A DNA stretch of 36,481 nucleotides, from positions 1 to 36,481 of the forward strand of contig JALEOL010000096.1 of NCBI GenBank assembly GCA_022766785.1. The letters run 5' to 3'. The stretch is from Oscillospiraceae bacterium (GTDB lineage: Bacteria > Bacillota > Clostridia > Oscillospirales > Ruminococcaceae). Of the stretch, positions 2,746-30,674 are shown one piece after another (positions within the stretch are counted from its first letter, which is position 1; each line of letters starts with the position of its first letter). The notes under the pieces are model-generated. The model was not told the origin of the DNA and did not search any database. It was given only the letters and a program-made list of their open reading frames with translations. The translations under genes and the position numbers were made by a program.

Positions 2746-3723
2746 ATGTGTACTGCTGCAACTTATAAAACAGATTGCTTCTACATGGGAAGAACACTGG
2801 ATTATGAATTCTCATACGGAGAAAGGATAACGATAACTCCCAGGAATTATCCTTTTCATTTCCGGCATGACGGGGATCTTGACAGCCACTATGCCATGAT
2901 AGGAATGGCGCATATCGCCGACGGTTTTCCGCTGTATTATGACGCGGTGAACGAAAAAGGACTGGGTATGGCGGGGCTGAATTTCGCAAAAAGCGCTGAG
3001 TATCCCGACGTGGGGAATGGACGGTGCGTGGCGCAGTTCGAGATAATTCCGTGGATTCTGAGCCGGTGCGCCGATCTGTCCGAGGCAAGAAAGCTGCTGG
3101 GGGAAGTCACTGTCGTGGGAACTCAGTTCAGCGAGAAGCTGCCGGTTGCGAAAATGCACTGGATCATCGCCGACAAAACCGGCGCGATAGTCGTGGAGCC
3201 TTTTGCACAGGGGCTGAGAATACACGATAACCCTGTCGGAGTCCTCACCAACGAACCGCCGTTCGAGCAGCAGATATCAAGGCTCAGCGACTATATGCAC
3301 CTTTCCCCGAAGCAGCCGGAGAACAGGCTCGGCATTCCGCTGGAGCATTACAGCAGGGGAATGGGCGCACTGGGTCTGCCGGGGGATCTGTCGTCGGCGT
3401 CCAGGTTCGTGCGCGCGGCTTTCACCAGGGCAAATTCGGTCTCCGGAAGTTCGGAGGAGGAGAGCGTTGGACAGTTCTTCCATATCCTCGGAGCGGTGGA
3501 GCAGGTCAGGGGCTGCTGCGAGGTGGAACCGGGAAAATATGAGATAACGATATACACTTCCTGCTGGAACGCCGACCGGGGTATATATTACCACACGACC
3601 TATAACAATCATCAGATATCCGCAGTGGATATGCACAGCGCCGACCTGGACGGCAGCGCGCTGTATTCCTGCCCGTTACAGGACAATGAGCAGATACGTT
3701 CCTGCGGTGTAACGAAGCTGTGA
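2746..3723 (+). CDS. Choloylglycine hydrolase family protein (bile salt hydrolase / penicillin V acylase)
   Basis: 325 residues, the usual family length. This is an N-terminal-nucleophile amidase: after Met removal Cys2 becomes the nucleophile. Residues matching the known active-site set are visible: C2, R16, D19, N79 (in GMAGLNF), N169 (in VLTNEPPFEQQ) and R220 (in GDLSSASRFVRAAF). The GLPGDLSSASRFVRAAF block is typical of bile salt hydrolases, which cleave glycine/taurine conjugates of bile acids. Gram-positive members are cytoplasmic, and no signal peptide is present here. Substrate (bile salts versus penicillin V or acyl-homoserine lactones) cannot be settled from sequence alone. A GNAT acetyltransferase gene follows after 13 bases. 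Confidence 0.9.
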   Translation: MCTAATYKTDCFYMGRTLDYEFSYGERITITPRNYPFHFRHDGDLDSHYAMIGMAHIADGFPLYYDAVNEKGLGMAGLNFAKSAEYPDVGNGRCVAQFEIIPWILSRCADLSEARKLLGEVTVVGTQFSEKLPVAKMHWIIADKTGAIVVEPFAQGLRIHDNPVGVLTNEPPFEQQISRLSDYMHLSPKQPENRLGIPLEHYSRGMGALGLPGDLSSASRFVRAAFTRANSVSGSSEEESVGQFFHILGAVEQVRGCCEVEPGKYEITIYTSCWNADRGIYYHTTYNNHQISAVDMHSADLDGSALYSCPLQDNEQIRSCGVTKL

Positions 3724-13331: not shown

Positions 13332-14363
13332 ATGGCAGCAAAGAACGTAACAATTCAGGATATTGCCGACAGGCTCGGCATGGCAAAGAGCACCGTATCA
13401 AAGGCGCTTTCCGGGGCTACCGATATCAGCGAAAAGACCCGGGAGCGCGTGCTCGGCTGTGCCAGCGAAATGGGATATCAGGTAAAGACAAACCGCGCTT
13501 CTTATACGAAATCCATCGTGGTGTTCATCTACGGAAGCATACACTACGACAAGGTGGATCAGTTCGGATATGAGATTATCCTGGGACTTCAGGCGGCTGC
13601 CGCGGAGCACGGTATCGGCGTGAATATCACAGCGATAAGCGATACGGAGCTTAAAAACGGCAGCTATTATCCCATAGTCACCGGCGGAAACTGCGAGGGC
13701 GCGGTGTTCCTCGGCTTCAAGCCGCATTCGGCGTTTATAGAGCAGGTGCGCAGCCTGAATATCCCACTGGTGATACTCGACAACAGCGCCGATTATCAGC
13801 TGGCGGCGAGAGTGGGCTGCGATAATGAATGGGGTATCCGCCAGCTTGTGCGTTACCTCTGGACAAAGGGGCACGACAGGATCGGCTTTCTTGGCGGCGA
13901 GCAGGACAGCATCGTCACCCGGGAGCGCTATCAGGCGTATTCCGGGGCGCTTGCCGAGCTGGGATTAGAGGAGATCCCCGGCGCTGTGAAGTACGGTCAT
14001 TTCTCGGCGCACGGCGCAAAGAAGCTGATCCTCGAAATAGCCAGTACAGGGGTGACTGCGGTAGTGTGCATAAGCGACCTGCTGGCGTGCACATCTATTC
14101 AGGAGCTTGCAAAGGCTGGGTATACCGTTCCCGGGGATATAAGCGTCACAGGGTACGATAATCTTCCGCCGTCCGAGTACTCTCAGCCACGTATCACAAC
14201 GATGTATCAGAACCGCATACATATAGGAAAAACCGCGTTCTTCATGCTTCAGCAGATGAACGGCGGCATAGCTATCGACTCAGTGCAGCTCCGTCCGGAG
14301 CTTATCGAGAGAGAGTCGGTAAAAACGCTCACTGTCAGGGAACTCCCGAAGGAAGACGAATGA
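13332..14363 (+). CDS. LacI/GalR family transcriptional regulator (mal/amylase cluster)
   Basis: 343 residues, intact. The N-terminus NVTIQDIADRLGMAKSTVSKALSG is a canonical LacI-family helix-turn-helix with the hinge GYQVKTNRASYTK; the sensor domain ends SVTGYDNLPPSEYSQPRITTMYQN. GGGAGGATCTC precedes the ATG. Its TGA overlaps the next ATG (ATGA at 14360-14363), so the amylase gene was translationally coupled to it. It sits between the decayed malEFG and the amylase/pullulanase genes, and the TTTCGAAA sites at 10930-11052 are its best candidate targets. It remains open although its neighbours on both sides are broken, possibly because it also controls the intact pullulanase. Confidence 0.93.
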   Translation: MAAKNVTIQDIADRLGMAKSTVSKALSGATDISEKTRERVLGCASEMGYQVKTNRASYTKSIVVFIYGSIHYDKVDQFGYEIILGLQAAAAEHGIGVNITAISDTELKNGSYYPIVTGGNCEGAVFLGFKPHSAFIEQVRSLNIPLVILDNSADYQLAARVGCDNEWGIRQLVRYLWTKGHDRIGFLGGEQDSIVTRERYQAYSGALAELGLEEIPGAVKYGHFSAHGAKKLILEIASTGVTAVVCISDLLACTSIQELAKAGYTVPGDISVTGYDNLPPSEYSQPRITTMYQNRIHIGKTAFFMLQQMNGGIAIDSVQLRPELIERESVKTLTVRELPKEDE

Positions 14364-15991
14364 AATCATCACCATTTTCACTTTCAGCCGCAGCCGCTGT
14401 TACGGCGGCTGCTGTTCTTTTATCCGGGTGCAGTTCCCCGGAGGATAACATGCAGGGCTATCAATACGAGCATGAGCTGAATATCATCGACGACAATTAC
14501 CGCAACTACTACCAGGTGTTTGTGTATTCTTTCTGCGACAGCAACGGGGACGGTATCGGCGACCTCGCCGGAGTGACCTCAAAGCTGGACTACATACAGG
14601 ACATGGGCTTCAACGGGATATGGCTGTCGCCGATAATGCCGTCGTCCTCCTACCACAAGTACAGCGTGAAGGACTACTATGCGATAGACGAGCAGTACGG
14701 CACAATGGAGGATTTCGAGAAGCTTGCCGCCGAGTGTGAAAAGCGCGGGATAAAGCTGCTCATAGACCTTGTGATGAACCACAGCTCAAAGGAGCACGAG
14801 TGGTTCGAACATGTGTCCCGGAGCCTGCGCAGCGACCCCTGCGGAGCGGCGGAAAATGAGCCTTGTCAGAACGGCGGCGTCTGCCCGACCCACGACCCGT
14901 ACATAGATTATTACTATTTTGCGGACGAAAAGCCGGTGGGCACAAATTCGTGGTACCAGACCGGCACGCACTGGTATTAGGCGGTGTTCTCGGAGAATAT
15001 GCCGGAGCTGAACCTTGACAACCCGGCTGTCCGCGCGGAATTTGAGAAGATCGCGGATTTCTGGCTGGAAAAGGGCGCCGGCGGTTTCCGACTGGACGCT
15101 GTAAAGGAATATTTCAGCGGAGATCCCGACAAGAATGTCGAGGTGCTGGAATGGTTCATGGGGCATTGCAAAGCCGTTGACCCGGACTGCTATGTCGTCG
15201 GTGAGGTGTGGGAGAGCTTCACCACCTACACTAAATACTACCGTTCGGGGATAGACAGCGTGTTCGGGTTCACCATGGCGGAGGAGGACGGAAAGATCGC
15301 AAAGACGATCAACATGTCAGGCTCGGCTAATTCCGTGAAGTCATTTGCGCAGGCAATGGTGACGGTAGAACAGAAGCTCGCTTCCTACAGCGATACCGCA
15401 ATAGACGCGCCGTTCATCGGCAATCACGACACCAACCGTGGCGCAGGTATCTTCGGCTATGACGAAACAAGGATAAAGGCGGCGGCAGGGCTGCTGCTAA
15501 CGATGTCAGGCTCGCCGTTCGTGTATTACGGAGACGAGATCGGTCTTTCCGGCAGCGGACGGGACGAGAACAAGCGCGCTCCTATGATCTGGGACAGCGA
15601 GAGCAGCGGGCAGACCTACGGGCCGCCGAATATGGAGCGGCAGGAAAACCGTTTCGCTGATGTCGAAACTCAGCTTTCTGACCCGGACTCGATACTGAAT
15701 TACTACAAGAGGGCGCTGCGTATACGCAACGAAAATCCCTGCATAGCGAGGGGCAGGACGGAAGTGCTTGACGTTCCCGGGCAGGAGATCGCCGCGGTTC
15801 GCCGCAGCTGGAACGGAGAGAGTATCGTTATTGTCTACAATTATTCGGACGAGAGCGCTTCGGTGGAGCTTCCCGGCGTTTCAGGAATGGAGCTGCGCGG
15901 CTATCTGACGGTCAGCAGTGCGCAGGAGGTATCGCTCGGGGAACAGCTTGAAATGCCGGCGTTCAGCATTGCGTTCCTCACCGAAAAATAA
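14360..15991 (+). pseudogene. Alpha-amylase family lipoprotein (GH13) with a single in-frame TAG
   Basis: Intact length would be about 543 residues. It has a lipoprotein signal (VLLSGCSS) and a GH13 barrel: YQVFVYSFCDSNGDGIGDL, LIDLVMNH, nucleophile GFRLDAV, acid/base VVGEVWES, and third carboxylate FIGNHDTN, followed by FVYYGDEIGLSG and a C-terminal beta domain. TAG at 14978-14980 interrupts the frame after ...GTHWY; the same frame then continues without further damage to 15991. The stop precedes all three catalytic residues, so no active enzyme is expected unless there is read-through. Before the mutation it would have cut starch or maltodextrin at the cell surface. It overlaps the LacI gene and is 15 bases before the pullulanase start. 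Confidence 0.9.
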
Positions 15992-18208: not shown

Positions 18209-19348
18209 ATGGATTTTCAGATCGTGCTGCCCGGAAAAACAATAGCAGGCAAGGGGGCTATCTCCCGTGCAGGGCTTGAGAAATACGGCAGAAAGCCGCT
18301 TATCGTCACCGGTAAATACACCGCGAAGTCTCCAGCGGCAGCAGAGCTTCTGAAATATGCTCCCTACGGAGTTGTATTTGACGGTATCACCGGGGAGCCT
18401 ACCGTGGAGATGATAAACGCAGGTGTTGCCGCATATCACGTAAATTCCTGCGATCATGTAATAGGTATCGGTGGCGGAAGCGCACTTGACAGCGCCAAGG
18501 CTGTCGCCGCAATGGCTGTGTTGGGCGGAAGCATTGCGCAATACATGGGCAGGGAGATCGACGGTGAATTCCCTCCGCTGGTGCTTATCCCGACCACCGC
18601 CGGCACAGGCTCTGAGGCGACTAAATTTACAATAATCACCGATACCGAAAAGGATATCAAGATGCTGCTCAAGGGGGACAAGCTGCTGCCCGACCTCGCT
18701 GTGCTGGATTATTCCTACACGCTGTCCTCGCCAAAGACAGTCACCGCGGCAACGGGTATGGACGCGCTGACCCATGCGATAGAGAGCTTCACATCGCGCA
18801 GGGCTAACCCGATCACCGACACCTTTGCATTGTCCGCACTGAAGCGCATTTTTGCGAACCTCCCGACAGCGTACAACAAGCCTGATGATGAGAACGCCCG
18901 GGAGCAGATGCTTCTTGCGGCTTATGAAGCCGGGGTGTGCATAAATAACGCCTCTGTCACGATAGTCCACGGAATGAGCCGCCCTATTGGCGCACTGTTT
19001 CATGTTCCACACGGCATTTCAAACGCCATGCTGGATATAAAGTGCCTGGGCTTTGCGGCGCAGGGCGCTCCGGAGAAATTCGCAGCGGCGGCGCGTGCCA
19101 TTGGTGTTTCGGACAACAAAGATGATAAAGCGGCAGCACAGGACTTCCTTGACGCACTTTCAAAGCTGTGCGCAGAGGTCGGGATACCAACGCTTGCGGA
19201 ATACGGCATCGACAGGGAAAAATTCTTTGCCGCGATGGACAAAATGGCTGATGACGCCCTTGCAAGCGGCAGCCCGGCGAATACCATAAGGGAAGTCACC
19301 AAGCAGGATATTCTGGATATCTACGCTTCTTTGTGGGATAACAATTGA
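18209..19348 (+). CDS. Iron-type alcohol dehydrogenase; candidate malonic semialdehyde reductase
   Basis: 379 residues. Group III metal-dependent alcohol dehydrogenase: NAD(P)-binding GIGGGSALDSAKA, PTTAGTGSEAT, and metal ligands D185 and H189 (in GMDALTHAIES), H254 (VHGMSRPIGALFH) and H268 (VPHG). The family reduces aldehydes to alcohols with NAD(P)H and Fe2+ or Zn2+ in the cytoplasm. Beside genes that should produce beta-alanine and then malonic semialdehyde, the simplest role is reduction of the semialdehyde to 3-hydroxypropionate, which would dispose of reducing power; a role on methylmalonic semialdehyde from thymine is equally open. This is inference from context. It has its own transcription unit, carrying the shared GTGCYGYGGCACAAC site. 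Confidence 0.88.
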   Translation: MDFQIVLPGKTIAGKGAISRAGLEKYGRKPLIVTGKYTAKSPAAAELLKYAPYGVVFDGITGEPTVEMINAGVAAYHVNSCDHVIGIGGGSALDSAKAVAAMAVLGGSIAQYMGREIDGEFPPLVLIPTTAGTGSEATKFTIITDTEKDIKMLLKGDKLLPDLAVLDYSYTLSSPKTVTAATGMDALTHAIESFTSRRANPITDTFALSALKRIFANLPTAYNKPDDENAREQMLLAAYEAGVCINNASVTIVHGMSRPIGALFHVPHGISNAMLDIKCLGFAAQGAPEKFAAAARAIGVSDNKDDKAAAQDFLDALSKLCAEVGIPTLAEYGIDREKFFAAMDKMADDALASGSPANTIREVTKQDILDIYASLWDNN

Positions 19349-19512: not shown

Positions 19513-19544
19513 AAAGAAAATATAAAAGTAAAGGAGAGCTAATT

Positions 19545-20807
19545 ATGTACACATGCAGCTACGACAGAATGAAGGACAAGATCGAAACTTTCAGCAAGTT
19601 TGGTGACGCAGGTCACGGAGGGATCACCCGTTACTCCCTTTCTCCGGCGGCGATACAGGCGAGAAACGAGTTCAAGCGCAGAATGGAAGCGATCGGAGCA
19701 ACGATCGAAGTTGACGATGTTGCATGTATGTATGCGACTCTGCCCGGCTCAGACCCGGACGCAAAGCGGATCGTTATGGGCTCCCATGTGGACAGCGTTA
19801 AGAACGGCGGCAACTACGACGGTATCCTCGGCGTAATGAGCGCGATGGAGGTGCTTGAAACGGTCGCTGAAAAGAAGATACCGCATAAGCACCCTCTTAC
19901 CGCCATGATATGGACAAACGAGGAAGGCTCGCTGTATCCTCCGGCAATGATGTGCTCCGGAATAATCTGCTATGACTATCTCCCGGAGGATATCCGCTGC
20001 AAGTTTAAATTTGAGGATATGATGGCTTCCAAGAGCATTCTTGATAACAAGTCCACCTTTGGCGAGGCTCTTGAAAAATCCGGCTTCAAGGGTGACAAGA
20101 AAAACCGTATCTCTCCCGAAAAGTACCTGTACATGTTCGAAACACACATCGAGCAGGGGCCGATCCTGGAGGACGCCGGAAATGATATCGGCGTTGTTGA
20201 CTGCGTTCTCGGAATGTTCAACTACCGCCTGAAGTTCTATGGTCAGACCACACACGCAGGAACTTTCCCGATGCCCAAGAGAAAGGACGCATTCCTGGCG
20301 GCTTCCCAGGCGCTGTGCTATCTGCATGAGGAGATCGACAAGCTGGGCTATTCCGATCTGGTATACACCACCGGCGAGGTAGTTTGCCACCCCTGCGTAC
20401 ACACCTGCGTTCCTGATTTCTTCGACTTCTCCTTTGACGCGCGCCATGAGGATCCGAAGGTGCTTGAGAAGGTGCTCACGATCGTCAAGAGCTGCGCTGA
20501 AAAGACCTGGGCAGGCTGTACCTGTGAGGTAGTCAAGGCATGGAACCGCGACACGGTTTACTATGATAAGAAGCTGGTGGGCTATGTCAAGGCAGCCGCC
20601 GAGGAGACCGGCATCAAGCACCAGTATATACATTCCGGTGCAGGTCATGACGCACAGTTCTGCGCTTACATGATCCCCACTACGATGATCTTTGTACAGA
20701 GCAAGGACGGTCTTTCCCACTGCGAGCCTGAGTTCAGCTCTGTGGAGCACTGCACCGAGGGCGCAACGGTTATGCTTAACGCTGTGCTGAAGGCTGATAA
20801 CGACTGA
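19545..20807 (+). CDS. M20-family N-carbamoyl amidohydrolase (beta-ureidopropionase type)
   Basis: 420 residues from ATG 19545, which has AAGGAGAG at ideal spacing; an upstream in-frame TTG at 19473 lies inside the leader hairpin and is unlikely. A binuclear-metal amidase of the allantoate amidohydrolase / L-carbamoylase / beta-ureidopropionase group: metal residues H81 and D92 (GSHVDSVKNGGNYDG), E126-E127 (WTNEEGS), H201 (ETHIEQGPILE) and H368 (SGAGHDA); the GQTTHAG dimerisation motif is present. With dihydropyrimidinase and dihydropyrimidine dehydrogenase nearby, N-carbamoyl-beta-alanine to beta-alanine plus CO2 and NH3 is the likely reaction. Allantoate is less likely since no allantoinase context is seen. 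Single-gene unit with its own promoter, attenuator and terminator. Confidence 0.9.
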   Translation: MYTCSYDRMKDKIETFSKFGDAGHGGITRYSLSPAAIQARNEFKRRMEAIGATIEVDDVACMYATLPGSDPDAKRIVMGSHVDSVKNGGNYDGILGVMSAMEVLETVAEKKIPHKHPLTAMIWTNEEGSLYPPAMMCSGIICYDYLPEDIRCKFKFEDMMASKSILDNKSTFGEALEKSGFKGDKKNRISPEKYLYMFETHIEQGPILEDAGNDIGVVDCVLGMFNYRLKFYGQTTHAGTFPMPKRKDAFLAASQALCYLHEEIDKLGYSDLVYTTGEVVCHPCVHTCVPDFFDFSFDARHEDPKVLEKVLTIVKSCAEKTWAGCTCEVVKAWNRDTVYYDKKLVGYVKAAAEETGIKHQYIHSGAGHDAQFCAYMIPTTMIFVQSKDGLSHCEPEFSSVEHCTEGATVMLNAVLKADND

Positions 20808-20830
20808 TCTTCTGAACATAATACAACAGG

Positions 20831-20860
20831 ACGCGGATGGCTTCGGCTGTCCGTGTTTTT
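20831..20860 (+). terminator. Intrinsic terminator with UUCG loop
   Basis: ACGCGGATGGC (20831-20841) and GCTGTCCGTGT (20846-20856) form an 11-bp stem with G-U pairs around a TTCG tetraloop, followed by a T-run to 20860, soon after the amidohydrolase stop. Confidence 0.92.
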
Positions 20861-21271
20861 GTTATGCTGGCTGTTTGAGGGGGAGTGGGTGGTGAATTCT
20901 GTTATGGAGATCATATGCTTTTGTGCACTAAGCAGTGCCTGCCCACCGGGAAATGAATGATAAGGCGCTGCCAAATTTCATTTTTGTGCTCCCTGATATA
21001 TACCCTGCAATTCCCGGAGAGCGGCTGTATCACAGGCAAAACGCACAAATCTGAGCTGTGACCCGAAATCAGAGGATCTGTCGGCACATATGTGATGTCG
21101 CGACCTCGGAAAATGTGTGCTGCGGCACAACAATATGTGTTTGTGCGGAAGCATAATGTGTGGGTGTGTGCACATTTCACATATATGGCGCTGGATTTTT
21201 GGAAATATTGTTGTGTAAATAGCCCAAATGTTATCGTGTGCATTGACAGAAAGCATATTTTGCTGTATACT
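20861..21271 (+). promoter_or_regulatory. Long regulatory region of the importer operon, with palindrome site 3
   Basis: No gene is supported here. GTGCTGCGGCACAAC lies at 21117-21131, the third copy of the shared site. Further TTGTGC/GCACAA hexamers occur at 20921-20926, 20984-20989, 21043-21048 and 21141-21146. The promoter is TTGACA (21243-21248), 17 bases, TATACT (21266-21271). The palindrome sits about 110 bases upstream of the -35. Confidence 0.7.
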
Positions 21272-21277
21272 TGAATC

Positions 21278-21391
21278 ATGAACAAGGGAAACGGAGAAAT
21301 GAATAATTCAAATCGAAATCCTGCAAGTTCACCAAGAAAAAAGATCAGAACGATCAGGGCAATGGCGCCAATGATGAAGCTATTGCCCTGA
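21278..21391 (+). CDS. Possible leader peptide of the importer operon
   Basis: A 37-codon open frame starts at ATG 21278, about the expected transcription start (+1). A second in-frame ATG at 21299 (30 codons) is preceded by AAGGGAAACGGAG and is the better start. The product is short and basic (…SPRKKIRTIRAMAPMMKLLP). Its TGA (21389-21391) lies in the 3' arm of the leader terminator, so a ribosome translating it would disrupt that hairpin. Coding status is unproven. Confidence 0.4.
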   Translation: MNKGNGEMNNSNRNPASSPRKKIRTIRAMAPMMKLLP

Positions 21392-21397
21392 TTTTTT
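21353..21397 (+). terminator. Leader terminator / attenuator of the importer-pyrimidine operon
   Basis: ATCAGGGCAAT (21353-21363) pairs perfectly with ATTGCCCTGAT (21382-21392) and is followed by TTTTTT (21392-21397). It is between the promoter at 21243-21271 and the AAGGAG at 21402-21407 of the first structural gene. This is a textbook intrinsic terminator placed in a 5' leader, i.e. an attenuator for the whole downstream operon. Confidence 0.85.
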
Positions 21398-21415
21398 ATT
21401 TAAGGAGTGATCGAT

Positions 21416-22192
21416 ATGGCAAATGAGAACACAGAGATCATGCTGGACGGTATCGGCATGGTGTACAAGGATCAGGGCGGCAATGATGTCACGGCGCTCA
21501 CCAACGTAACGCTGGATATCAAGAAGGGTGAGTTCATCTCTCTGCTTGGTCCCTCCGGATGCGGCAAGACCACTCTACTGAGAATTATCGCGGATCTTCT
21601 TCACCCTACGTCAGGAAAGATCACGGTGGGCGGAGTTTCTCCCCGGGAAGCAAGGCTTGCACAGCGCTACGGCATTGTGTTCCAGAGCCCGGTGCTTTAC
21701 GACTGGCGCACAGTCAGAAAGAACGTTATGCTTCCGCTGGAGATAATGCATGTGCCCAAGGACGAGCGCGAGGATATCGCGGACAGCATGCTGGAGATGG
21801 TAGGGCTTACGAATTTCGCAAACCACTATCCCAATCAGCTCTCAGGCGGTATGCAGCAGAGAGTAGGCATTGCAAGAGCGCTGGCTATACGCCCGGAGAT
21901 ACTGCTGATGGACGAGCCATTCTCAGCGCTGGACGAATTCACCCGTGAGAAGCTGCACGTCGATCTGCTGAAGATCTGGCGAAAGACAAACAAGACGATC
22001 ATCTTTGTAACGCACAACATCTCCGAAAGCGTGTTCCTGTCCGACAGAGTGTGCGTACTTTCACCTCACCCGGGACGTCTTTCGGCGGTGGTTGACATCG
22101 ATCTTCCCCGACCGAGGACTCTGGAGCTTACCGACACACAGGAATTCACAGAGCTTGTATCAAAGGTAAGGAACAGCTTCGAGGGCGTATGA
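21416..22192 (+). CDS. ABC transporter ATP-binding protein (SsuB/TauB/ThiZ type)
   Basis: 258 residues from ATG 21416, eight bases after AAGGAG; an upstream GTG at 21407 overlaps that site and is less likely. Complete nucleotide-binding domain: Walker A GPSGCGKTT, Q-loop VFQSPVLYDW, signature LSGGMQQR, Walker B ILLMDEPFSALDE, and switch His in FVTHNISE. It energises the membrane importer encoded by the next two genes. This class, with NMT1/SsuA-like binding proteins, imports nitrogen- or sulfur-containing small molecules such as pyrimidines, riboflavin precursors, taurine or sulfonates. Here the operon predicts a pyrimidine or hydantoin-like substrate. It overlaps or nearly overlaps the next gene. 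Confidence 0.93.
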   Translation: MANENTEIMLDGIGMVYKDQGGNDVTALTNVTLDIKKGEFISLLGPSGCGKTTLLRIIADLLHPTSGKITVGGVSPREARLAQRYGIVFQSPVLYDWRTVRKNVMLPLEIMHVPKDEREDIADSMLEMVGLTNFANHYPNQLSGGMQQRVGIARALAIRPEILLMDEPFSALDEFTREKLHVDLLKIWRKTNKTIIFVTHNISESVFLSDRVCVLSPHPGRLSAVVDIDLPRPRTLELTDTQEFTELVSKVRNSFEGV

Positions 22193-22206
22193 CAGGAGGG
22201 AACGGC

Positions 22207-23058
22207 ATGACAAACGCAAAACCGGCGCAAAAGGGCTTCCTCCCGGCACTGAAGCGCTTCGCTCATTCAAAGAAAATGGTGACGCTTGTCTGGATACTGG
22301 GCATAGTGGTCATCTGGGAGATATTCGCGTTCATCGTTGCGGCGACAAAGCGCACTCCGGTGAATGTGCTGCCGCATCTGTGGGAGATAATCGGGTCGTT
22401 TTTCAGCGACAAGAAGGTCACCGGAAAAATGACGATGATAGAGCTTATCGGCACGGCGTGCGGCGAAACGCTTTCCCGTGCGGGAATAGGCTTCCTGACG
22501 GGAATTGTGCTGGGATATATCCTGGCGCTGCTGATGAACCTTTCCAGGGTAGTCGAGAAGATCGCGTTCCCTTATCTGATGATAATCCAGATGATACCGA
22601 TACTCGGTATGGCGCCGATAATCCTCTCAATAACCGGCGATATCAATTCCGCAAGAATAGTCATCGCTGCGATACTTACATTCTATCCGGTATCGACCAA
22701 CGTTCTCGCCGGCTTCCGTTCGGTGGAGCGTGAAAAGCACGAGCTGATGTACAGCTACGCGGCGAACAAATTCCAGCTTTACACAAAGACGCTTATCCCG
22801 GCATGTATACCGTACTTCTTCACGGGACTGAAGATCTCCGCGCCGATGGCTATCACAGCTTCGATCCTGGTGGATACTCTCCAGGGCGGCAACGGACTTG
22901 GCTGTATGCTCTCCCAGTCCCTCAAGGGCGGCATGACCCGTCTGGTGTTCTGGGACATCGTGCTGATAAGCGCGGTGATCGGAATTCTGAGCTTTGTGCT
23001 TATGGGCGTGATAGAGAGGCTTCTCTGCCCGTACAAGCGCAACAGGACAAGCGACTGA
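22207..23058 (+). CDS. ABC transporter permease 1 (SsuC-like)
   Basis: 283 residues from ATG 22207 with GGAGG seven bases before; an ATG at 22189 overlapping the ATPase stop (ATGA) is the alternative. About six membrane spans, beginning with VTLVWILGIVVIWEIFAFIV. The segment from about ERE KHELMYSYAANKFQLYTKTLIPACIPYF carries the EAA-like loop that docks on the ATPase. Member of the binding-protein-dependent permease family used with NMT1-type binding proteins. A second, different permease follows after 12 bases, so the channel is predicted to be a heterodimer. Confidence 0.9.
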   Translation: MTNAKPAQKGFLPALKRFAHSKKMVTLVWILGIVVIWEIFAFIVAATKRTPVNVLPHLWEIIGSFFSDKKVTGKMTMIELIGTACGETLSRAGIGFLTGIVLGYILALLMNLSRVVEKIAFPYLMIIQMIPILGMAPIILSITGDINSARIVIAAILTFYPVSTNVLAGFRSVEREKHELMYSYAANKFQLYTKTLIPACIPYFFTGLKISAPMAITASILVDTLQGGNGLGCMLSQSLKGGMTRLVFWDIVLISAVIGILSFVLMGVIERLLCPYKRNRTSD

Positions 23059-23070
23059 GGAGGGATAGCA

Positions 23071-23871
23071 ATGAGATCGAAGAAATGGCTGGGCATGTTA
23101 TCCAGCGTTGGTCTGCCGCTGCTTTTCGGCGTGGTTATCTTCGTACTCTGGCAGACGCAGATACTTCATTCGTGGATGGGTACTGATACGATTACCCTTC
23201 CGCTTCCCACCAGGATAGGCGAGATCATTTCGCAGAACAACGAAAGCATCGGCAGTCAGATAAAAATGACGCTGATCGTTGCACTGGGCGGACTGGTGGC
23301 AGGCAGCCTTCTGGGATATCTCATCGCGGTGATCGCAACGATATTCCGCAAGTGGGGCGCAGGCGGTCTTACCATAGTGTCGGCTTTCAATGCGATACCG
23401 ATAGTCGCCCTGGCTCCGGTGATCAACAACTGGACGCGTGACGTCAGCAACGAGGTCTCCGTCAGGAGCACGATGGCGAAGATAATCGTGGTGACTATTT
23501 CCTGCACCGCTGCAATGAGCGTAAACGCGTTCCGTGGACTTACCGAGCTGAAGCCGTTCTCCGAGGATCTCATGAAATCCTATGCGGCGAGCAAGGTGAC
23601 GGTATTCCTGAAGCTGAGGCTGCCGAACTCGCTGCCGTATGTGTTCACGGCGCTTAGAGTGAGCGTTCCGGCGAGCGTCATCGGCGCACTTGTAACCGAA
23701 TACTTCGCTGAGGACACGGTGGGCGTCGGCAGACAGATCCGCGAGAATATCGTAAAAGGACAATATCCCACGGCGTGGGCTTACATCGCGACAGCCTGCG
23801 CGATAGGCATCGGAATGTACATCATTCTCATGCTGGTGGAAAGAGCAGTGCTTAAACGCAGAAGGGCGTGA
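23071..23871 (+). CDS. ABC transporter permease 2 (SsuC-like)
   Basis: 266 residues, GAGGAGGG before the ATG. Around six membrane spans starting at LPLLFGVVIFVLWQTQILH; the EAA-like loop is in ELKPFSEDLMKSYAASKVTVF followed by LKLRLPNSLPYVFTALRVS. It is clearly homologous to the preceding permease but divergent, consistent with a heterodimeric channel. The binding lipoprotein gene follows after 50 bases. Confidence 0.9.
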   Translation: MRSKKWLGMLSSVGLPLLFGVVIFVLWQTQILHSWMGTDTITLPLPTRIGEIISQNNESIGSQIKMTLIVALGGLVAGSLLGYLIAVIATIFRKWGAGGLTIVSAFNAIPIVALAPVINNWTRDVSNEVSVRSTMAKIIVVTISCTAAMSVNAFRGLTELKPFSEDLMKSYAASKVTVFLKLRLPNSLPYVFTALRVSVPASVIGALVTEYFAEDTVGVGRQIRENIVKGQYPTAWAYIATACAIGIGMYIILMLVERAVLKRRRA

Positions 23872-23921
23872 CCCTTCCGTTTAGATAGAACAAAAGGTAT
23901 AAAGAAAGGCAGGTACACATT

Positions 23922-25124
23922 ATGAAAGCAGAAACCAAAAGAGTATTCCTTGCAGGAGTTGCGGCAATTCTGGCATGCGCACAGCTGACAGCTTGTTCCG
24001 GAGGCACATCAGGCTCCGACAGCTCGTCTTCCACCAGCGCGGCTGACAGCTCCGTTGCAGACAGCAGTTCCGCAGCGGAAAGTACAGCAGCCGAGGACAG
24101 TTCAGCGGCAGACAGCGAGGCTGCTTCCGGTCTGATGTCCAGCGCAGAGATCATCAAGGCTGCGGCAGATGAGGGAACAGTAGGCAACTGGGGACTCGGC
24201 AACGAGTATGAGATCCAGGCGCTGCTGACAAAGTACGGACTTCCCACTGATTATATCACCATGGACTTCACCATGGATCAGTTCGACAGCGACAGCGTAA
24301 AGCTGGCTTCTGCGATGACATATAACGAGCTTGGTCTTGTAAAGAACAGCTACGACGGCGGCTACGGCTACGGCGACGACGTAAGCATCATCGATATGAA
24401 CGACGAGGGCGTTGCAATGCTGGAGGACAACCTGTTCACCTCCAAGGCATTCGCTGAGGCTAACCCGAATACCGTAAAGGCTTTCGTTTCGGCTTCCATG
24501 AAGGGCTGGGCTTACGCCTGCGAGCACCCGGACGAGGCAGCGCAGATCGTATTCGAGGCTGGTTCCTCCGTATCCGCTGACCACCAGGCATATATGGCGA
24601 CAGAGGTAGCAAAGCTCGTTACCACTGACATGAACGACAATTCCGTTTCCGCATCTGATGTAGGCAACATGGACGAGACCGCTATGCAGCAGACCCTTGA
24701 CCTTGCAAAGCAGTACATCATTCTTGAGGACAGCTCCGCAAAGGATAAGCTGGCTTCCATGACCCTTGACGATATCCGCAGCACTGATTATCTCACCTAC
24801 GACCCTGCAACAGACGGCGCTCCCGAAAAGACCTCCGTTTCCGTACAGCTCAAGTGGCTGCCGCAGGCTCAGTTCATGGGCTATTATGTAGCAGAGGCAA
24901 AGGGCTACTATGACGAGGTCGGTCTGGACGTTGAGATCATCTCCGGCGGCGGCGACATCTCCGAGACTACCGCGGTATACAACGGCACTGTTGACTTCGG
25001 CGTAACATGGGTTTCCAACCTCATCAACGCAAACGCAGGCGGCATGGAGCTGCTGGAGGTTGCTCAGGTATATCAGAGATCCGGTCTGGTTCTGGTTTAC
25101 AAGAACGCTAACTACACAAAGTAA
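23922..25124 (+). CDS. NMT1/THI5-family substrate-binding lipoprotein, apparently circularly permuted
   Basis: 400 residues. Signal peptide with lipobox QLTAC (Cys25), then a Ser/Ala/Asp-rich linker to about residue 73. In ordinary NMT1/SsuA-like proteins the mature chain starts with a strand like [27 protein letters not shown]-type sequence. Here that segment (SVQLKWLPQAQFMGYYVAEA, KGYYDEVGLDVEI, VDFGVTWVSNL, SGLVLVYK) is at residues 304-394, at the C-terminus. The segment that normally follows it (GTVGNWGLGNEYEIQALLTK, MTYNELGLVKNSY, ANPNTVKAFVSASMKGWAYA, CEHPDEAAQIVFEAG, MTLDDIRSTDYL) is at about 74-291, directly after the linker. A short acidic linker (TYDPATDGAPEK) joins old C-terminus to old N-terminus. 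The frame is open throughout. It is the binding protein of the importer; the ligand is probably a pyrimidine-related compound. Confidence 0.9.
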   Translation: MKAETKRVFLAGVAAILACAQLTACSGGTSGSDSSSSTSAADSSVADSSSAAESTAAEDSSAADSEAASGLMSSAEIIKAAADEGTVGNWGLGNEYEIQALLTKYGLPTDYITMDFTMDQFDSDSVKLASAMTYNELGLVKNSYDGGYGYGDDVSIIDMNDEGVAMLEDNLFTSKAFAEANPNTVKAFVSASMKGWAYACEHPDEAAQIVFEAGSSVSADHQAYMATEVAKLVTTDMNDNSVSASDVGNMDETAMQQTLDLAKQYIILEDSSAKDKLASMTLDDIRSTDYLTYDPATDGAPEKTSVSVQLKWLPQAQFMGYYVAEAKGYYDEVGLDVEIISGGGDISETTAVYNGTVDFGVTWVSNLINANAGGMELLEVAQVYQRSGLVLVYKNANYTK

Positions 25125-25259
25125 GGTAAATACGATCTTTCATTCCCACGGCAGATCCTCACTCCGGTGAGGATTTGTCGGAAAGCCCGGTGCAGCGATG
25201 TACCCGGTTTTCCGACAAATTACAATTTGCCAGATCTGTATTTTAAGGAGGCTTCTGAT
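25125..25259 (+). other. Tandem hairpins between the binding protein and dihydropyrimidinase genes
   Basis: ATCCTCAC/GTGAGGAT (25155-25162, 25167-25174) is a perfect 8-bp stem with a TCCG loop. Next, 25173-25191 pairs with 25202-25220: 19 positions with a single mismatch and one G-U pair around a 10-base loop. No T-run follows, so this looks like an mRNA-stabilising or processing element that separates a highly expressed binding protein from the enzyme genes, or an intergenic repeat. AAGGAGG at 25245-25251 is the ribosome binding site of the next gene. Confidence 0.65.
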
Positions 25260-26621
25260 ATGGATATGATAATCAGGAACGGCACGGTGGTGAATGCCAC
25301 AGGTTCCTACAAGGCGGACGTTGCGGTGAAGGACGGGAAGATCGCGGCTGTCGGCTTCATTCCGGATACTCCCGGCGCAAAGGTGGTGGACGCCACGGGC
25401 AAGTTGGTGCTCCCGGGTGCTATCGACGCTCACACCCACCTTGCGATGCCGTTTGGCGGCACGGTTTCCTCTGACGACTATTTCGCAGGAACAAGGGCTG
25501 CGGCGTGCGGCGGAACCACAACGGTGTTTGATTTTGCGATGCAGGATTTCGATGAGACCATGACCCAGACCTTTGAGCGCAGGAACGCTCTTGCGGCTCC
25601 GGACGCGGCGGTGGACTATTCTTTCCACATCGGCGTTAAGGATATCCACGGCGGACTTCTGGACAGCATTAAGGACGCCTGCGATATCGGCATTACTTCC
25701 TACAAGGTGTTCATGGTGTATGATTTCGGCGTAAAGGACGGCGTGTTCTTCCAGCTGCTTGAGAAGTCGAAGGAGTTCGGCGTGCTTATCGCGGTTCACG
25801 CGGAGAACAACGAGCTTGTAAATACCCTTTCCGAGAAGTACATCAGCGAGGGCAAGACCGACGCGTGGTATCACTACATGAGCCGTCCCGAGTTCGTCGA
25901 GGGCGAGGCGGACGAGCGTGCGATAAATCTCGCAAAGGCTGCGAACGCTCCGCTGTATATCGTTCATCTCGCTGATAAGCAGGGCGTTGAGGCGGTAACA
26001 AAGGCAAAGGATGAGGGCTACGAGATCTACGCCGAGACCTGTCCGCAGTATCTGGAGTTCACAAGCGACGTATACAAGCGCGCGGACGGCAGGAACTTCG
26101 TATGCTCGCCGCCTATGAAAGGCAAAGAGTCCCAGGACGCTATCTGGGAAGCGATAAAACGCGGCGATATCGACACTATCGCAACAGACCACTGCCCGTT
26201 CCAGCAGAGCGAAAAGGACTGGGGTCTCAATGACTTCCGCAAGATCCCTAACGGCTGCGCCGGCATTGAGAACATGTACCCCTACATGCTGGGCAAGGCA
26301 AATGACGGCGTGATCTCCTTTGAAAAGGCTGTGGAGATTTGCTCGACCAATCCGGCGAAGATCTTCGGCTGCACCGAAAAGGGCGAGATCGCACCCGGTA
26401 AGGACGCAGATATCGTTATCTACGACCCGGAGAAGGATTTCACGATACATCAGGAGAACATGCACTCCGACTGCGACCACACCATCTGGGAGGGAGTAAG
26501 CGTTCACGGCTATCCCGTGCAGACCTATTCCAGAGGCAGGCTGGTGTTCGACAACGGCGAGTTTGTCGGCGAGCGCGGCTGGGGCAGGTTCGTTAAGTGC
26601 GCAAAGCACGTTTCAAAGTAA
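25260..26621 (+). CDS. hydA: Dihydropyrimidinase (D-hydantoinase family)
   Basis: 453 residues from ATG 25260 (AAGGAGG eight bases upstream); the open frame extends further upstream only into the hairpins. Cyclic amidase of the amidohydrolase superfamily with all binuclear zinc ligands: H58 and H60 (DAHTHLAMPFGG), carboxylated Lys149 (ITSYKVFMVY), H180 (AVHAEN), H236 (YIVHLADKQG) and D310 (IATDHCPFQQSEKDW). It opens 5,6-dihydrouracil or dihydrothymine to N-carbamoyl-beta-alanine or its methyl analogue. It is followed after 32 bases by dihydropyrimidine dehydrogenase, which makes its substrate. Hydantoins are an alternative substrate class, but the neighbouring dehydrogenase argues for dihydropyrimidines. 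Confidence 0.95.
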   Translation: MDMIIRNGTVVNATGSYKADVAVKDGKIAAVGFIPDTPGAKVVDATGKLVLPGAIDAHTHLAMPFGGTVSSDDYFAGTRAAACGGTTTVFDFAMQDFDETMTQTFERRNALAAPDAAVDYSFHIGVKDIHGGLLDSIKDACDIGITSYKVFMVYDFGVKDGVFFQLLEKSKEFGVLIAVHAENNELVNTLSEKYISEGKTDAWYHYMSRPEFVEGEADERAINLAKAANAPLYIVHLADKQGVEAVTKAKDEGYEIYAETCPQYLEFTSDVYKRADGRNFVCSPPMKGKESQDAIWEAIKRGDIDTIATDHCPFQQSEKDWGLNDFRKIPNGCAGIENMYPYMLGKANDGVISFEKAVEICSTNPAKIFGCTEKGEIAPGKDADIVIYDPEKDFTIHQENMHSDCDHTIWEGVSVHGYPVQTYSRGRLVFDNGEFVGERGWGRFVKCAKHVSK

Positions 26622-26653: not shown

Positions 26654-28132
26654 ATGAAATACGGAGAGCTTATTCTTAATAACGAAGCGGCACGGTGTAT
26701 GCTGTGCGCCGACGCCCCCTGCACTGCGGCGTGTCCGAAAGGCTTCGACCCGGCGAGGTTCATCAGGGCGGCGAGGTTCGAAAATGCGGCGGTGGGCGCA
26801 GGCTATATCGACAGCAAGGTCTGCGCGGAATGCACCGGCGAGTGCGAAAGAGCCTGTCTGCATTACCAGCAGCCGGTGGAGATCCGGAGAATGGCTGCGG
26901 CGGCTCCCGAACCGGTAAAGCCTGAGGAGCTTGACCTGTCGATGGACTTCTGCGGAGTGCGGTGCGAGAACCCGTTCTTCCTGTCGTCGTCGGTGGTGGC
27001 GAGCAGCTACGAGATGTGCGCGAATGCGCTGAGAGCCGGCTGGGGCGGTATCGTCTACAAGACGATAGGCTTCATAAAGCCGGACGAGGTGTCGCCGAGA
27101 TTTGACGCGATAGGCAAGGAAAGCACCCCTTTCATCGGCTTCAAGAACCTGGAGCAGATCTCCGACCACCCGCTGAAAGAAAACCTTGAGATACTGAAAC
27201 GGCTCAAGACCGAATTCCCGACGAAGATCATCGTATCCTCGATCATGGGCAGCACCGAGGAGGAATGGACGGAGCTTGCAAGGCTTTCCGAGGAAGCAGG
27301 CTGCGATATCATCGAATGCAATTTCTCTTGTCCGCAGATGGTGGGGGAGGGGCTTGGCAGCGATGTCGGACAGAACCCCGATCTCGTCCGTTCCTACACG
27401 GCGGCGGCAAAGCGCGGCACAAAGCTGCCGGTGCTTGCGAAGATGACCCCTAACATTGGAAATATGGAGATCCCGGCAATTGCCGCAAGGGAGGGCGGAG
27501 CCGACGGTATCGCCGCTATCAACACGGTAAAGAGCCTGACGCGAATCGACCTTGATACAATGGTATCATATCCCGGCGTGAACGGGAAGTGTTCCGTTTC
27601 GGGATATTCCGGCAAAGCAGTGAAGCCTATCGCGCTGCGGTTCATTCATGACATGGCGGTATGTCCGGAGCTTAAAGGCGTACCTCTCAGCGGAATAGGC
27701 GGCATTGAAAGCTGGCAGGACGCACTGGAATTCATCGCGCTTGGGTGTGAGAATATCCAGATCACCACAGCGGTAATGCAGTACGGCTACCGCATAATCG
27801 ACGATCTAATCACGGGCACGCAGGCGTATCTTAAATCCCATGGCATGACCAGCCTGCGGCAGCTTACCGGCAAGGCGCTTGCGGATATAGTCCCGGCGGA
27901 CGACCTTGACCGCAGCACCGTGGTATACCCGATATTCGACGATACCAGCTGCGTAGGCTGCGGCAGATGTTATGTGTCCTGCATGGACGGCGGACATCAG
28001 GCTATCGCGCTGGGCGAGGACAGAAAGCCGCATCTCACCGGAGGGAAATGCGTGGGCTGCCTGCTGTGTTCTCTCGTATGTCCCACCGGCTCGATAAAGC
28101 AGAGCCGCCGTGTAAAAAAAACAGGAAGATAA
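26654..28132 (+). CDS. preA: Dihydropyrimidine dehydrogenase, FMN/Fe-S form without FAD and NADPH domains
   Basis: 492 residues. Three parts: an N-terminal Fe-S domain with eight cysteines (C15, C18, C23, C27, C57, C60, C64, C68) like domain I of mammalian DPD or the start of bacterial PreT; an FMN-binding TIM barrel like PreA (about 95-400) with the catalytic cysteine in CNFSCPQM (C226); and a C-terminal ferredoxin domain with two 4Fe-4S motifs (C433, C436, C439, C443 and C466, C469, C472, C476). The FAD and NAD(P)H domains that normally lie between the first two parts, or in a PreT subunit, are absent, and no PreT gene is in the window. It should reduce uracil or thymine to the dihydro form, but its electron donor is unclear; a ferredoxin or unlinked flavoprotein are options. 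Confidence 0.92.
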
Positions 28133-28153: not shown

Positions 28154-29365
28154 ATGGCTATCACTCTCGCAAAGCTGTGCGCAAACACTGAAAAGACCTA
28201 CGGAATGAAGCTCGTCGCCGGAAAAGCCGGACTGGAGAACTTCGTGAGATGGGTGCATATCGTGGAGGACAGCGAGGTGCCGGATTTCATGCACGGCAAC
28301 GAGCTGGTTTTCACCACAGGTATAAGCCACAAGGGGGTCAGCTGGCTGCTGGAATTTGCGCAGCACCTTTACGACAGGCACGTCGCAGGGTTTGTGATAA
28401 ATATCGGGCCGTACATCAGCGCGGTACCCAAGGAGGTGGCGGAGTTCTGCGAAAAGAACGCGCTGCCGCTGTTCGTGGTGCCATGGGCGGTAAGGCTCAT
28501 CGATATCACCTACGACTTCTGCCACCGCATAATCAGCAGCGAGGAGAGTGAAACGAGCCTTGCCGGGGCTTTCCGAAACCTTTTCTTCACCCCGGGGGAT
28601 CGTAACAGCTATGCGCCGGTACTGGAGCGCAGAGGATTTCATGACGTGAGCGGCTACACGCTGCTTTGCGCAGAGATATCCCACCCGGACAGGGCAGGGA
28701 CGGCGGACGAGTGGCGCAGCGTGAAGTTCCTGGTGAGAAAGGTTTGCTCCGGCAGCCAGTATCCCTCCTGCATATTCATTCAGGAGAATACACTGGTGAT
28801 AGTCCGGCAGCATTTCCCCGTTCAGGAAGCGCACCGCCTGGCTGAGCAGCTTGCGGCGGCGGTTCTGGAGAACATCACGGCGCCTGCCGGAGTTCATGTC
28901 GGGATATCCGATGTGGGGCTTGGTTTTGACGGGATACATACGGCGTGGCACCAGGCGGCTTCCGCAATGCGGCTGGCGGTCATGAAGAAAGCCACGGTCA
29001 TGCATTATCACGACATCGGCGTGTACAAGCTGCTTTTCGGCGTGGAAAGCTCAAAGATCCTTTCGGACTATGTTGAGACCACCCTGGGACGGCTGCTGGA
29101 TCACGACGCAAAAAATAACGGAGATTACGCGGAGCTGCTGCGCTGCTATTTCGAGAATGATTGCAGCGTAAAGGTGGTAGCGGATATCTTCGGAGTACAC
29201 AGAAATACGGTGAACTACAAGCTCAAGCAGATCCGCGAGATGCTTGGCAGCGAATTCAGCGATGAGGACAAGATGAATCTGCTGCTGGCGTTCCGGGCTC
29301 AGGAGCTTCTGAACACTGAAAATACAAAGGTATTTATGGAGGACGATCCTTATGAATGCAACTGA
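28154..29365 (+). CDS. PucR-family transcriptional regulator
   Basis: 403 residues. N-terminal PucR-like sensor (about 5-125: LAKLCANTEKTYGMKLVAGK and FMHGNELVFTTGISHKG), a GGDEF-like middle region, and a C-terminal helix-turn-helix of the PucR/CdaR class (LLRCYFENDCSVKVVADIFG then VHRNTVNYKLKQI). Members typically activate purine, pyrimidine, GABA or sugar-acid catabolism in response to a pathway metabolite. It lies inside the pyrimidine operon, 21 bases after the dehydrogenase gene with AAAGGAGGG before the ATG, and its end overlaps the aminotransferase start by 14 bases. It is the only regulator in the region, so the best candidate to bind the shared GTGCYGYGGCACAAC sites. Confidence 0.9.
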   Translation: MAITLAKLCANTEKTYGMKLVAGKAGLENFVRWVHIVEDSEVPDFMHGNELVFTTGISHKGVSWLLEFAQHLYDRHVAGFVINIGPYISAVPKEVAEFCEKNALPLFVVPWAVRLIDITYDFCHRIISSEESETSLAGAFRNLFFTPGDRNSYAPVLERRGFHDVSGYTLLCAEISHPDRAGTADEWRSVKFLVRKVCSGSQYPSCIFIQENTLVIVRQHFPVQEAHRLAEQLAAAVLENITAPAGVHVGISDVGLGFDGIHTAWHQAASAMRLAVMKKATVMHYHDIGVYKLLFGVESSKILSDYVETTLGRLLDHDAKNNGDYAELLRCYFENDCSVKVVADIFGVHRNTVNYKLKQIREMLGSEFSDEDKMNLLLAFRAQELLNTENTKVFMEDDPYECN

Positions 29366-30674
29366 GATCAAAACAAATCACAGCAAGTACAATCTTCAGT
29401 CCTGGTCTAAGCAGAAGGGACTGAACCCAATTGCCGTTGAAAAAGGCGAGGGCATCTATTTCTGGGATTATGACGGAAACAGATACACCGATATGTCCAG
29501 CCAGCTGGTAAACCTCAACGTAGGCTTCGGCTGCCGTCCCATTATCGACGCTATCAAGGAGCAGGCGGAGAAGTTCTGCTTCGTCGGCCCCAGCTACGCA
29601 GCGGAGAGCCGTTCCAAGCTTGCGCAGATGCTGGTAGAATTAATGCCGGACAATATCGGCAAGGTGTTCTTCACCAACGGCGGCGCTGACGCGAACGAGA
29701 ACGCGATCAAGATGGCGAGAATGTACACCGGACGTAAGAAGATCTTCTCCCGTTACAGAAGCTACCACGGCTCCACATTCGGCGCAGGAAACCTCACCGG
29801 CGAGCCGAGAAGATATCCGCTGGAACCCGGTATCCCCGGATTTGTAAAGTTCTTCGACCCGTATATGTACCGGGACAATCTGCCTTTTGCCACCGAAAAG
29901 GAGTGCAGCGACTTCTATGTGAACAAGCTGCGCGAGCAGGTGATCTACGAGGGGCCTGACAGCGTTGCAGCTATCGTTATGGAGACCGTCACCGGTTCGA
30001 ACGGCGTTATCATTCCGCCGGAGGGCTATCTGGAGGGCGTTCGCAAGATCTGCGACGATTACGGCATAATGATGATCTGCGACGAGGTAATGGCAGGCTT
30101 CGGCAGAACGGGCAAGATGTTCGCATTCGAGAACTTCGGCGTGAAGCCTGATATCGTAAGCTTTGCAAAGGGCGTTACCTGCGGATATGTACAGCTTGGC
30201 GGCGTTGCGGTCAGCAAGCAGATCGCGGAGTATTTCGACGACAACGTGCTCCAGTGCGGACTCACCTACAGCGGTCACCCATTAGCGTGCGCAGCAGGAG
30301 TTGCGTGTCTGAATTATTACAAGGATACCAATATCCTGGACAATGTAAACAAGAGCGGCAAGGTGCTGGGCGAGCTTCTGGAGGAACTGAAGGCTAAGCA
30401 CAAGTGCGTCGGCGATGTGCGCTACATCGGTCTGTTCTCGGCGATCGAGCTTGTAAAGGATAAGGACACACGCGAGGCGCTGGTGCCCTACGGCGGAGAC
30501 AAGCTGGGAGTCATGGGCGGCATTATCGGCAAGCTAAAGGCGAAGAAGTTCATGACCTATTCCCACGAGAACATGATCCTCATCTGCCCTCCTCTCATCA
30601 TCACACCCGAGCAGCTGCGTGAGGAAATGGTGAAGGTAGACGAGGTGCTCACCGAGGTTGACGCTACTCTTTAA
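29352..30674 (+). CDS. Class III aminotransferase; candidate beta-alanine transaminase
   Basis: 440 residues. PLP-dependent fold type I: TNGGADANENAIKMAR, YRSYHGSTFGAGNLTGEPRR split over two strands, the cofactor-ring Asp in MICDEVMAGFGRTG, the Schiff-base lysine K273 in DIVSFAKGVTCGY, and GLTYSGHPLACAAG. Class III enzymes act on omega-amino groups. Immediately downstream of genes that generate beta-alanine (or 3-aminoisobutyrate from thymine), conversion to malonic (or methylmalonic) semialdehyde is the natural role, giving nitrogen release to an oxo-acid acceptor. The start lies 14 bases inside the PucR gene with GGAGGA upstream, implying translational coupling. Confidence 0.92.
   Translation: MNATEIKTNHSKYNLQSWSKQKGLNPIAVEKGEGIYFWDYDGNRYTDMSSQLVNLNVGFGCRPIIDAIKEQAEKFCFVGPSYAAESRSKLAQMLVELMPDNIGKVFFTNGGADANENAIKMARMYTGRKKIFSRYRSYHGSTFGAGNLTGEPRRYPLEPGIPGFVKFFDPYMYRDNLPFATEKECSDFYVNKLREQVIYEGPDSVAAIVMETVTGSNGVIIPPEGYLEGVRKICDDYGIMMICDEVMAGFGRTGKMFAFENFGVKPDIVSFAKGVTCGYVQLGGVAVSKQIAEYFDDNVLQCGLTYSGHPLACAAGVACLNYYKDTNILDNVNKSGKVLGELLEELKAKHKCVGDVRYIGLFSAIELVKDKDTREALVPYGGDKLGVMGGIIGKLKAKKFMTYSHENMILICPPLIITPEQLREEMVKVDEVLTEVDATL

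Follow-up and report, generated by a model that had tools for sequence, protein, structure and literature searches.

The window (the whole stretch of DNA analysed, 36,481 nucleotides) carries on its plus strand a gene cluster for reductive pyrimidine degradation (Pyd), in the order iron-type alcohol dehydrogenase, amidohydrolase, ABC importer ATPase, two permeases, permuted substrate-binding protein (SBP), dihydropyrimidinase, PreA-like dehydrogenase, PucR-type regulator and class-III aminotransferase. The SBP gene (23922-25124) is an intact open reading frame of 400 codons, whose translation is a lipoprotein of 400 amino acids. For each neighbouring gene, the number of related loci with a counterpart is given below (80 loci in total); these are counts of tblastn matches at any place in the locus with an E-value no higher than 1e-10, and they include weak ones (ATPase, 30% in L053; dihydropyrimidinase, 41-44% in L057, L072, L073 and L075). 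The neighbours in L001 are oddly arranged, and several of the 80 loci end at contig edges.

Upstream of the SBP gene, an iron-type alcohol dehydrogenase (18209-19348, plus strand; 43 of 80 loci), which matched Fe-ADH families below the equivalog cut-offs, is a candidate malonic semialdehyde reductase (PydE) on the basis of the operon. It is followed on the same strand by an amidohydrolase of the ureidopropionase type (PydC-like, 19542-20807; NF006771 and TIGR01879 above cut-off; 52 loci), the ATPase that partners the SBP (21407-22192; ABC_tran, E 3e-35; 78 loci) and permeases 1 and 2 (22189-23058 and 23071-23871; both BPD_transp_1 and both in 79 loci). Downstream, again on the plus strand, lie a dihydropyrimidinase (PydB/HydA, 25260-26621, the start codon being the analyst's choice; TIGR02033, 488 bits against a cut-off of 393; 77 loci) and a PreA-like dihydropyrimidine dehydrogenase (26654-28132; NF006183, 564 bits against a cut-off of 335; 73 loci). 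The latter comprises Fer4_20, DHO_dh and 4Fe-4S domains, with the ferredoxin-type parts flanking DHO_dh and no FAD domain listed, which is the domain make-up given for the ferredoxin-dependent PydAc of Clostridium in the excerpt considered of PMC7332683. The PucR-type transcriptional regulator (28154-29365, plus strand; 55 loci) was assigned from regulator matches below cut-off, and the class-III aminotransferase (29352-30674, plus strand; NF004718 above cut-off; 61 loci) is a candidate beta-alanine aminotransferase (PydD), again with its role taken from the operon. An annotated PucR regulator is also present in the Pyd cluster of Deinococcus.

The gap between the SBP and dihydropyrimidinase genes (25125-25259) contains a strong hairpin (RNA fold of 25120-25240, -53 kcal/mol, z -6.7), 26-base pieces of which have 88% identical counterparts at three further sites of the genome; it is possibly a repeated palindrome that raises expression of the SBP above that of the enzymes. 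An Rfam scan of 20800-25400 yielded no match.

Elsewhere in the window, the neighbouring ORFs 14360-14980 and 14984-15991 share a single alpha-amylase domain between them, the former matching its beginning (profile 1-127) and the latter its end (152-446), and are probably one broken or mis-sequenced gene. A protein encoded on the minus strand (671-2527) combines a protein kinase domain with subsequent leucine-rich repeats, an uncommon pairing in bacteria. A choloylglycine (bile-salt) hydrolase family protein (2746-3723; PF02275, E 1.5e-89) would fit a gut organism.

Compared with PF09084 (NMT1), the whole SBP yielded an E-value of 3e-32 and 112.7 bits (gathering cut-off 20.5), with the matched segments in reversed order: profile positions 2-83 correspond to window positions 24867-25112, and profile positions 95-216 to 24177-24539. 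The protein thus passes the gathering score of the family with its segments out of profile order. Three further places in the same genome match PF09084. Solved structures gave the same picture: PDB entry 4nmy matched with query residues 305-372 on chain residues 7-73 and query residues 86-218 on chain residues 112-243, and ThiY (3ix1) with 305-385 on 4-84 and 149-212 on 170-234. As controls, the normal-order orthologue L088 aligned with 4nmy in a single stretch (3-301 to 8-301), and a normal-order orthologue aligned with ThiY in a single colinear stretch. An order-sensitive profile will accordingly report two partial matches for the permuted protein, which is a trap for annotation.

Four parts of the chain were delimited. 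Residues 1-70 (23922-24131, plus strand) are a lipoprotein signal peptide and a Ser/Ala-rich linker, the translation showing the lipobox LTAC at residues 22-25 with Cys25. Segment B (residues 71-291; 24132-24794, plus strand), formerly the middle and C-terminal part, now comes first in the mature protein, as delimited by PF09084, 4nmy and Thi5. The bridge that links the old termini (residues 292-303, TYDPATDGAPEK; 24795-24830, plus strand) has no counterpart in the normal-order orthologue. Segment A (residues 304-400; 24831-25121, plus strand; KWLPQAQFMGYYVAEAKGYY...DFGVTW...SGLVLVYKN), formerly N-terminal, is now C-terminal, as delimited by PF09084 2-83, 4nmy 7-73 and ThiY 4-84. In the rotated alignment the break in the old chain falls between SGLVLVYK and SSAEI...GTVGNW with nearly nothing lost, so that both segments are essentially complete and the old termini are joined by about 12 residues.

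In the rotation scan, the opening point of the mature core was moved three residues at a time, and each rotated form was compared with eight normal-order proteins by global alignment. The best opening was at residues 302-305 for seven of the eight targets and at 290 for the remaining one (L190). Against L088, opening the core near residue 303 raised the score from 218.5 to 562.5, and none of 100 shuffles exceeded 14; the peak is broad, a score of 542.5 still being attained more than 30 residues away. Between two normal-order proteins, the best alignment was the unrotated one.

The AlphaFold2 (AF2) model of the permuted chain is confident (pLDDT 94.1, pTM 0.92), including the two ten-residue blocks that contain the bridge (confidence 95-97). 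Its pTM and best structural matches, which are binding proteins and effector domains that we take to be of type II, point to a two-lobed type II periplasmic-binding-protein fold. In the structural comparison, Thi5 (4h67, chain 98-305) aligned with the model over 6-229 only, i.e., over residues 71-294, which is its contribution to the limits of segment B; ThiY and 4nmy were not among the structural matches listed, which is no argument against kinship. Segment A was modelled poorly on its own (pLDDT 62, from 42 sequences), as is expected for part of a split lobe, and therefore offers no independent structural test.

The product of 23922-25124 is thus confirmed as an SBP of the NMT1/THI5 type whose front quarter has really been relocated to the tail end. 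The first-pass annotation had placed the former N-terminal segment (residues 304-394) after the former middle one (74-291), in an open frame, with the signal and Ser-rich linker joined directly to the former middle and a bridge between the old termini. The reversed PF09084 stretches, the rotation scan, the orthologues and the segment-wise profiles all agree with this order, the proposed limits are correct to within a few residues, and the frame, the leader junction and the bridge are as described; the profile alignment and structure prediction it had suggested as checks gave the reversed order and the confident model, respectively.

A scan of species genomes found 199 relatives. The 80 returned loci that were inspected all carry the permuted order in a single ORF; named strains and one complete chromosome (L056) are among them. 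According to the record names, 68 of the loci belong to Bacillota, eight to Spirochaetota, one to what is given as Pseudomonadota, and three are unassigned; the order is common to a clade of Clostridia and some Spirochaetes, and Ruminococcus bromii is among the carriers (L035, L036, L040). In the window and in these loci, the SBP is encoded together with ABC permeases and ATPase and with Pyd enzymes, so the recurrence of the order beside the same operon, proposed beforehand as a check, was indeed found. Since several loci retrieved later are genes of L001-L080 fetched again, the total of 112 permuted ORFs is not one of independent observations, and the claim about order rests on the 80. The permutation is a family trait forming one clade and is not private to the genome of the window.

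A lipobox-like motif was detected by a simple regular expression in 73 of the 80 relatives. Five of the eight spirochaete members (L057, L062, L072, L073, L075) have a leader without the motif, which argues that the permuted arrangement is not tied to lipid anchoring.

Normal-order relatives were sought with the rotated permuted protein as query. The nearest ones come from one order of the same phylum (that of genome G022), in which 53 of 149 genomes gave a colinear match of E 1e-22 or better; the best set shows 45-49% identity after rotation. In L116, L117, L118, L119, L191 and L192 the SBP likewise has its place behind the second permease, and dihydropyrimidinase and PreA lie close by; L119 and L192 form a remoter normal-order set (36-38% identity). 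ATPase copies 53-68% identical adjoin the normal-order orthologues. For other normal-order loci, L189 has only PreA nearby, the region of L190 ends early, and in L120, L188 and L193 neither dihydropyrimidinase nor PreA was matched within the stretch covered. The relative in L188 (G617:C82; 45% identity) is from the window's own class, and its 6.4 kb contig yielded no match to a Pyd enzyme; it is possibly a survivor of the normal-order form, or else a contaminant contig. Among plasmids, 38 records matched, and in 37 a single place spans 80% of the query or more. Deinococcus taeanensis (WP_225524152.1) and Sinorhizobium meliloti (UIJ94200.1) carry a normal-order SBP of 36-37% identity inside a Pyd cluster; in Azospirillum ramasamyi no Pyd genes were found beside the normal-order SBP in the plasmid region inspected. 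Conservation in at least 97% of 82 permuted proteins was seen at 132 positions. At 80 of these (30 in segment A, 50 in segment B) the residue is shared by 90% or more of 22 normal-order orthologues, and at the other 52 it is not; the shared positions argue for a kept site.

Regarding distribution, the rotated query matched 72 of 299 genomes of the phylum, 12 of 291 of the window's class and four of 198 of the spirochaete phylum. Matches in two pieces, as the permuted form gives, were confined to G000 and G246 in the phylum sample and to five genomes (G000, G246, G563, G669, G677) in the class sample, where G611 matched with the segment B half only; the permuted form is uncommon in the window's own class. 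Among the 198 spirochaete genomes it was found in G731 (the centre genome) only and so appears sparse there, though the scan of species genomes found eight spirochaete loci. The 17 genomes chosen as holders of the permuted form all matched the rotated query and gave no normal-order match at E 1e-14, which fits replacement and not coexistence.

For the trees, permuted proteins were first rotated to normal order; normal-order rows had scores above 60 bits and spans above 200 residues, and copies from the window itself (L081, L082, L086) were excluded, as were identical cores. The first tree used 147 of 148 rows (82 permuted, 65 normal), L149 being left out as a partial ORF with segment B only that had been mislabelled as normal order, and required one change of order (SH-aLRT 100). 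The second comprised 73 chosen rows (70 of the earlier rows and three plasmid proteins) and was rooted with 12 remote NMT1 proteins. Here the permuted clade had support of 100/100 and was present in every one of the 200 bootstrap trees counted. The sister group consists of 16 normal-order proteins from the G022 order and L188 (joint clade 97/87); the SBPs of Deinococcus and the alphaproteobacteria fall outside. The rotated proteins thus nest among normal-order SBPs of the Pyd type, as expected for common descent with the normal-order members of PF09084. The permuted clade sits on a long stem of 1.9 changes per column. To account for the spirochaete members, at least five changes are required on the rooted tree, several of the forks concerned being weak, and their scattered placement among clostridial sequences suggests repeated transfer.

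The origin of the order could be sought in the assembly, the window genome being an 85.75% complete assembly of 112 contigs in which misassembly or recombination might have put the 5' part of the gene behind its 3' part. This is excluded by the 80 independent assemblies that all show the identical order in one ORF, the complete chromosome among them, and by the recurrence of ABC and Pyd genes on both flanks of the permuted gene; the first-pass annotation had named misassembly among the findings that would overturn its reading, and the chance of it is now negligible. Alternatively, segment B could have lost its own N-terminal part and gained a similar C-terminal segment from another SBP gene, for which it speaks that segment A is 51-55% identical to the orthologues L088-L090 versus 40-43% for segment B. 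When profiles of the two segments were run separately against 68 normal-order proteins, however, the same 22 orthologues filled 22 of the 22 top places for segment A and 21 of 22 for segment B, and remote NMT1 paralogues scored far lower for both. Because the two segments rank the same orthologues first, true permutation is preferred and a borrowed segment is very improbable. That the permuted order is ancestral and the normal one derived is hardly conceivable: nothing was found in its favour, and the outgroup NMT1 proteins and the SBPs of Deinococcus, Sinorhizobium, Azospirillum and the G022 order, which branch on all sides of the permuted clade once the tree is rooted, have the normal order throughout. 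Several independent permutations were rejected within the sampling, given one clade in two trees. The permutation seems, from these trees, to have arisen once and to be derived; all permuted proteins used are more than 60% identical to segment A of the window, so remoter permuted groups could exist unseen. Its probable route would be tandem duplication and trimming of the ancestral gene. Duplicated forms (A-B-A-B or A-B-A) were absent from the 169 ORFs with both segments, each of which has a single stretch of either, so the duplication route has no direct support from an intermediate.

The gene very probably encodes a functional, naturally permuted SBP lipoprotein descended from the SBP of a Pyd ABC importer, in favour of which are the lipoprotein leader, the ABC partners, the Pyd enzymes, the kept residues and the confident fold. 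Its likely role is that of a tethered receptor of an ABC importer for uracil and thymine, the ligand being assigned from the gene neighbourhood. The SBP would capture uracil, thymine or a close derivative between its two lobes and pass the base to the adjacent permeases and ATPase for PydA, PydB and PydC, and the imported base would then be reduced and hydrolysed to beta-alanine. A non-pyrimidine ligand such as N-carbamoyl-beta-alanine, hydantoin, allantoin or beta-alanine is unlikely but deserves consideration: hits to hydantoinase and allantoin-enzyme families were also obtained with the dihydropyrimidinase and the amidohydrolase, some normal-order relatives (L120, L188, L193, Azospirillum) lie outside Pyd clusters, and the long stem of the permuted clade leaves room for a change of ligand. 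Against this, the PreA-type dehydrogenase, above its cut-off and frequent in the loci, acts on the free base, so that the base must be available, and the named solved sequence relatives are mostly pyrimidine-precursor proteins (ThiY, THI5, THI13). For the preferred uracil/thymine receptor, the strand immediately before the cut site is presumably the one following the first crossover of a type II SBP; with the cut in this position, the N-terminal lipid tether would lead into the lobe after the first crossover and not into the lobe with the old N-terminus.

In many cases a natural circular permutation comes to notice only where the proteins compared are too distant to show the event cleanly. Given a shared operon and about 45% identity, the permuted and normal-order orthologues are a natural experiment on chain topology and anchor position in SBP function, and it becomes directly testable how chain order and tether position influence binding, closure and docking. 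For protein engineering, the family also provides a naturally occurring permutation site in a class of scaffolds from which sensors are built. With members in gut species such as R. bromii, the importer may take part in gut pyrimidine uptake; its uptake of fluoropyrimidine drugs is speculation.

Circular permutation in the SBP superfamily is already known; what appears to be new is a permutation that lies inside one orthologous group, in one type of operon, and whose occurrence can be located on a tree. Among the literature matches listed for permutation in SBPs or NMT1-type proteins (titles and starts of abstracts), none reported the present case, and among those listed for the Pyd pathway none named this importer. 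The excerpt considered of a paper on OpuAC of L. lactis (PMC2861598) has no word starting with 'permut', and that of PMC11036815 does not use the term 'substrate-binding'. Natural permutation in an ABC-importer binding protein had been called unusual in the first-pass annotation; it is rare, but the excerpts of PMC4990184 and PMC2395249 provide precedents in TpMglB-2 and in glycine-betaine binders.

TpMglB-2 (Tp0684) resembles the permuted SBP as a naturally permuted ABC-type binding lipoprotein, with N-terminal strands that are now C-terminal; according to the same excerpt it binds glucose in vitro, has relatives in treponemes and Gram-positives, and shows 13% identity between its last 100 residues and the first 100 of E. 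coli MglB; its authors weigh for it the same kind of borrowed segment as considered above and leave replacement of the gene open (PMC4990184). It differs in its type I (cluster B) fold and sugar ligand, whereas the permuted SBP belongs to the NMT1 sequence family and is not a type Ic SBP like TpMglB-2. Adaptation to lipid anchoring as the sole cause, which was raised for TpMglB-2, is weakened by the spirochaete leaders without a lipobox. Permutation has also been reported between glycine-betaine binders (excerpt of PMC2395249). One such binder, OpuAC of B. subtilis (2b4l/2b4m), has another ligand and 12% identity to the permuted SBP, and its Foldseek TM-score of only 0.43 by query length makes the likeness in chain path suggestive. 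The ThiY/NMT1-THI5 family (PF09084; 3ix1, 4nmy, 4h65) is homologous to both segments and, by PDB names, includes several pyrimidine-precursor proteins, but it is colinear, which the permuted SBP is not, and the PDB names imply no Pyd context. Most similar are the SBPs of normal-order Pyd importers (L088 and L116 of G022, D. taeanensis, S. meliloti), which share with the permuted SBP the slot after the second permease and the Pyd neighbours; their segments run in the order A-B, whereas those of the permuted family run B-A and are joined by the bridge.
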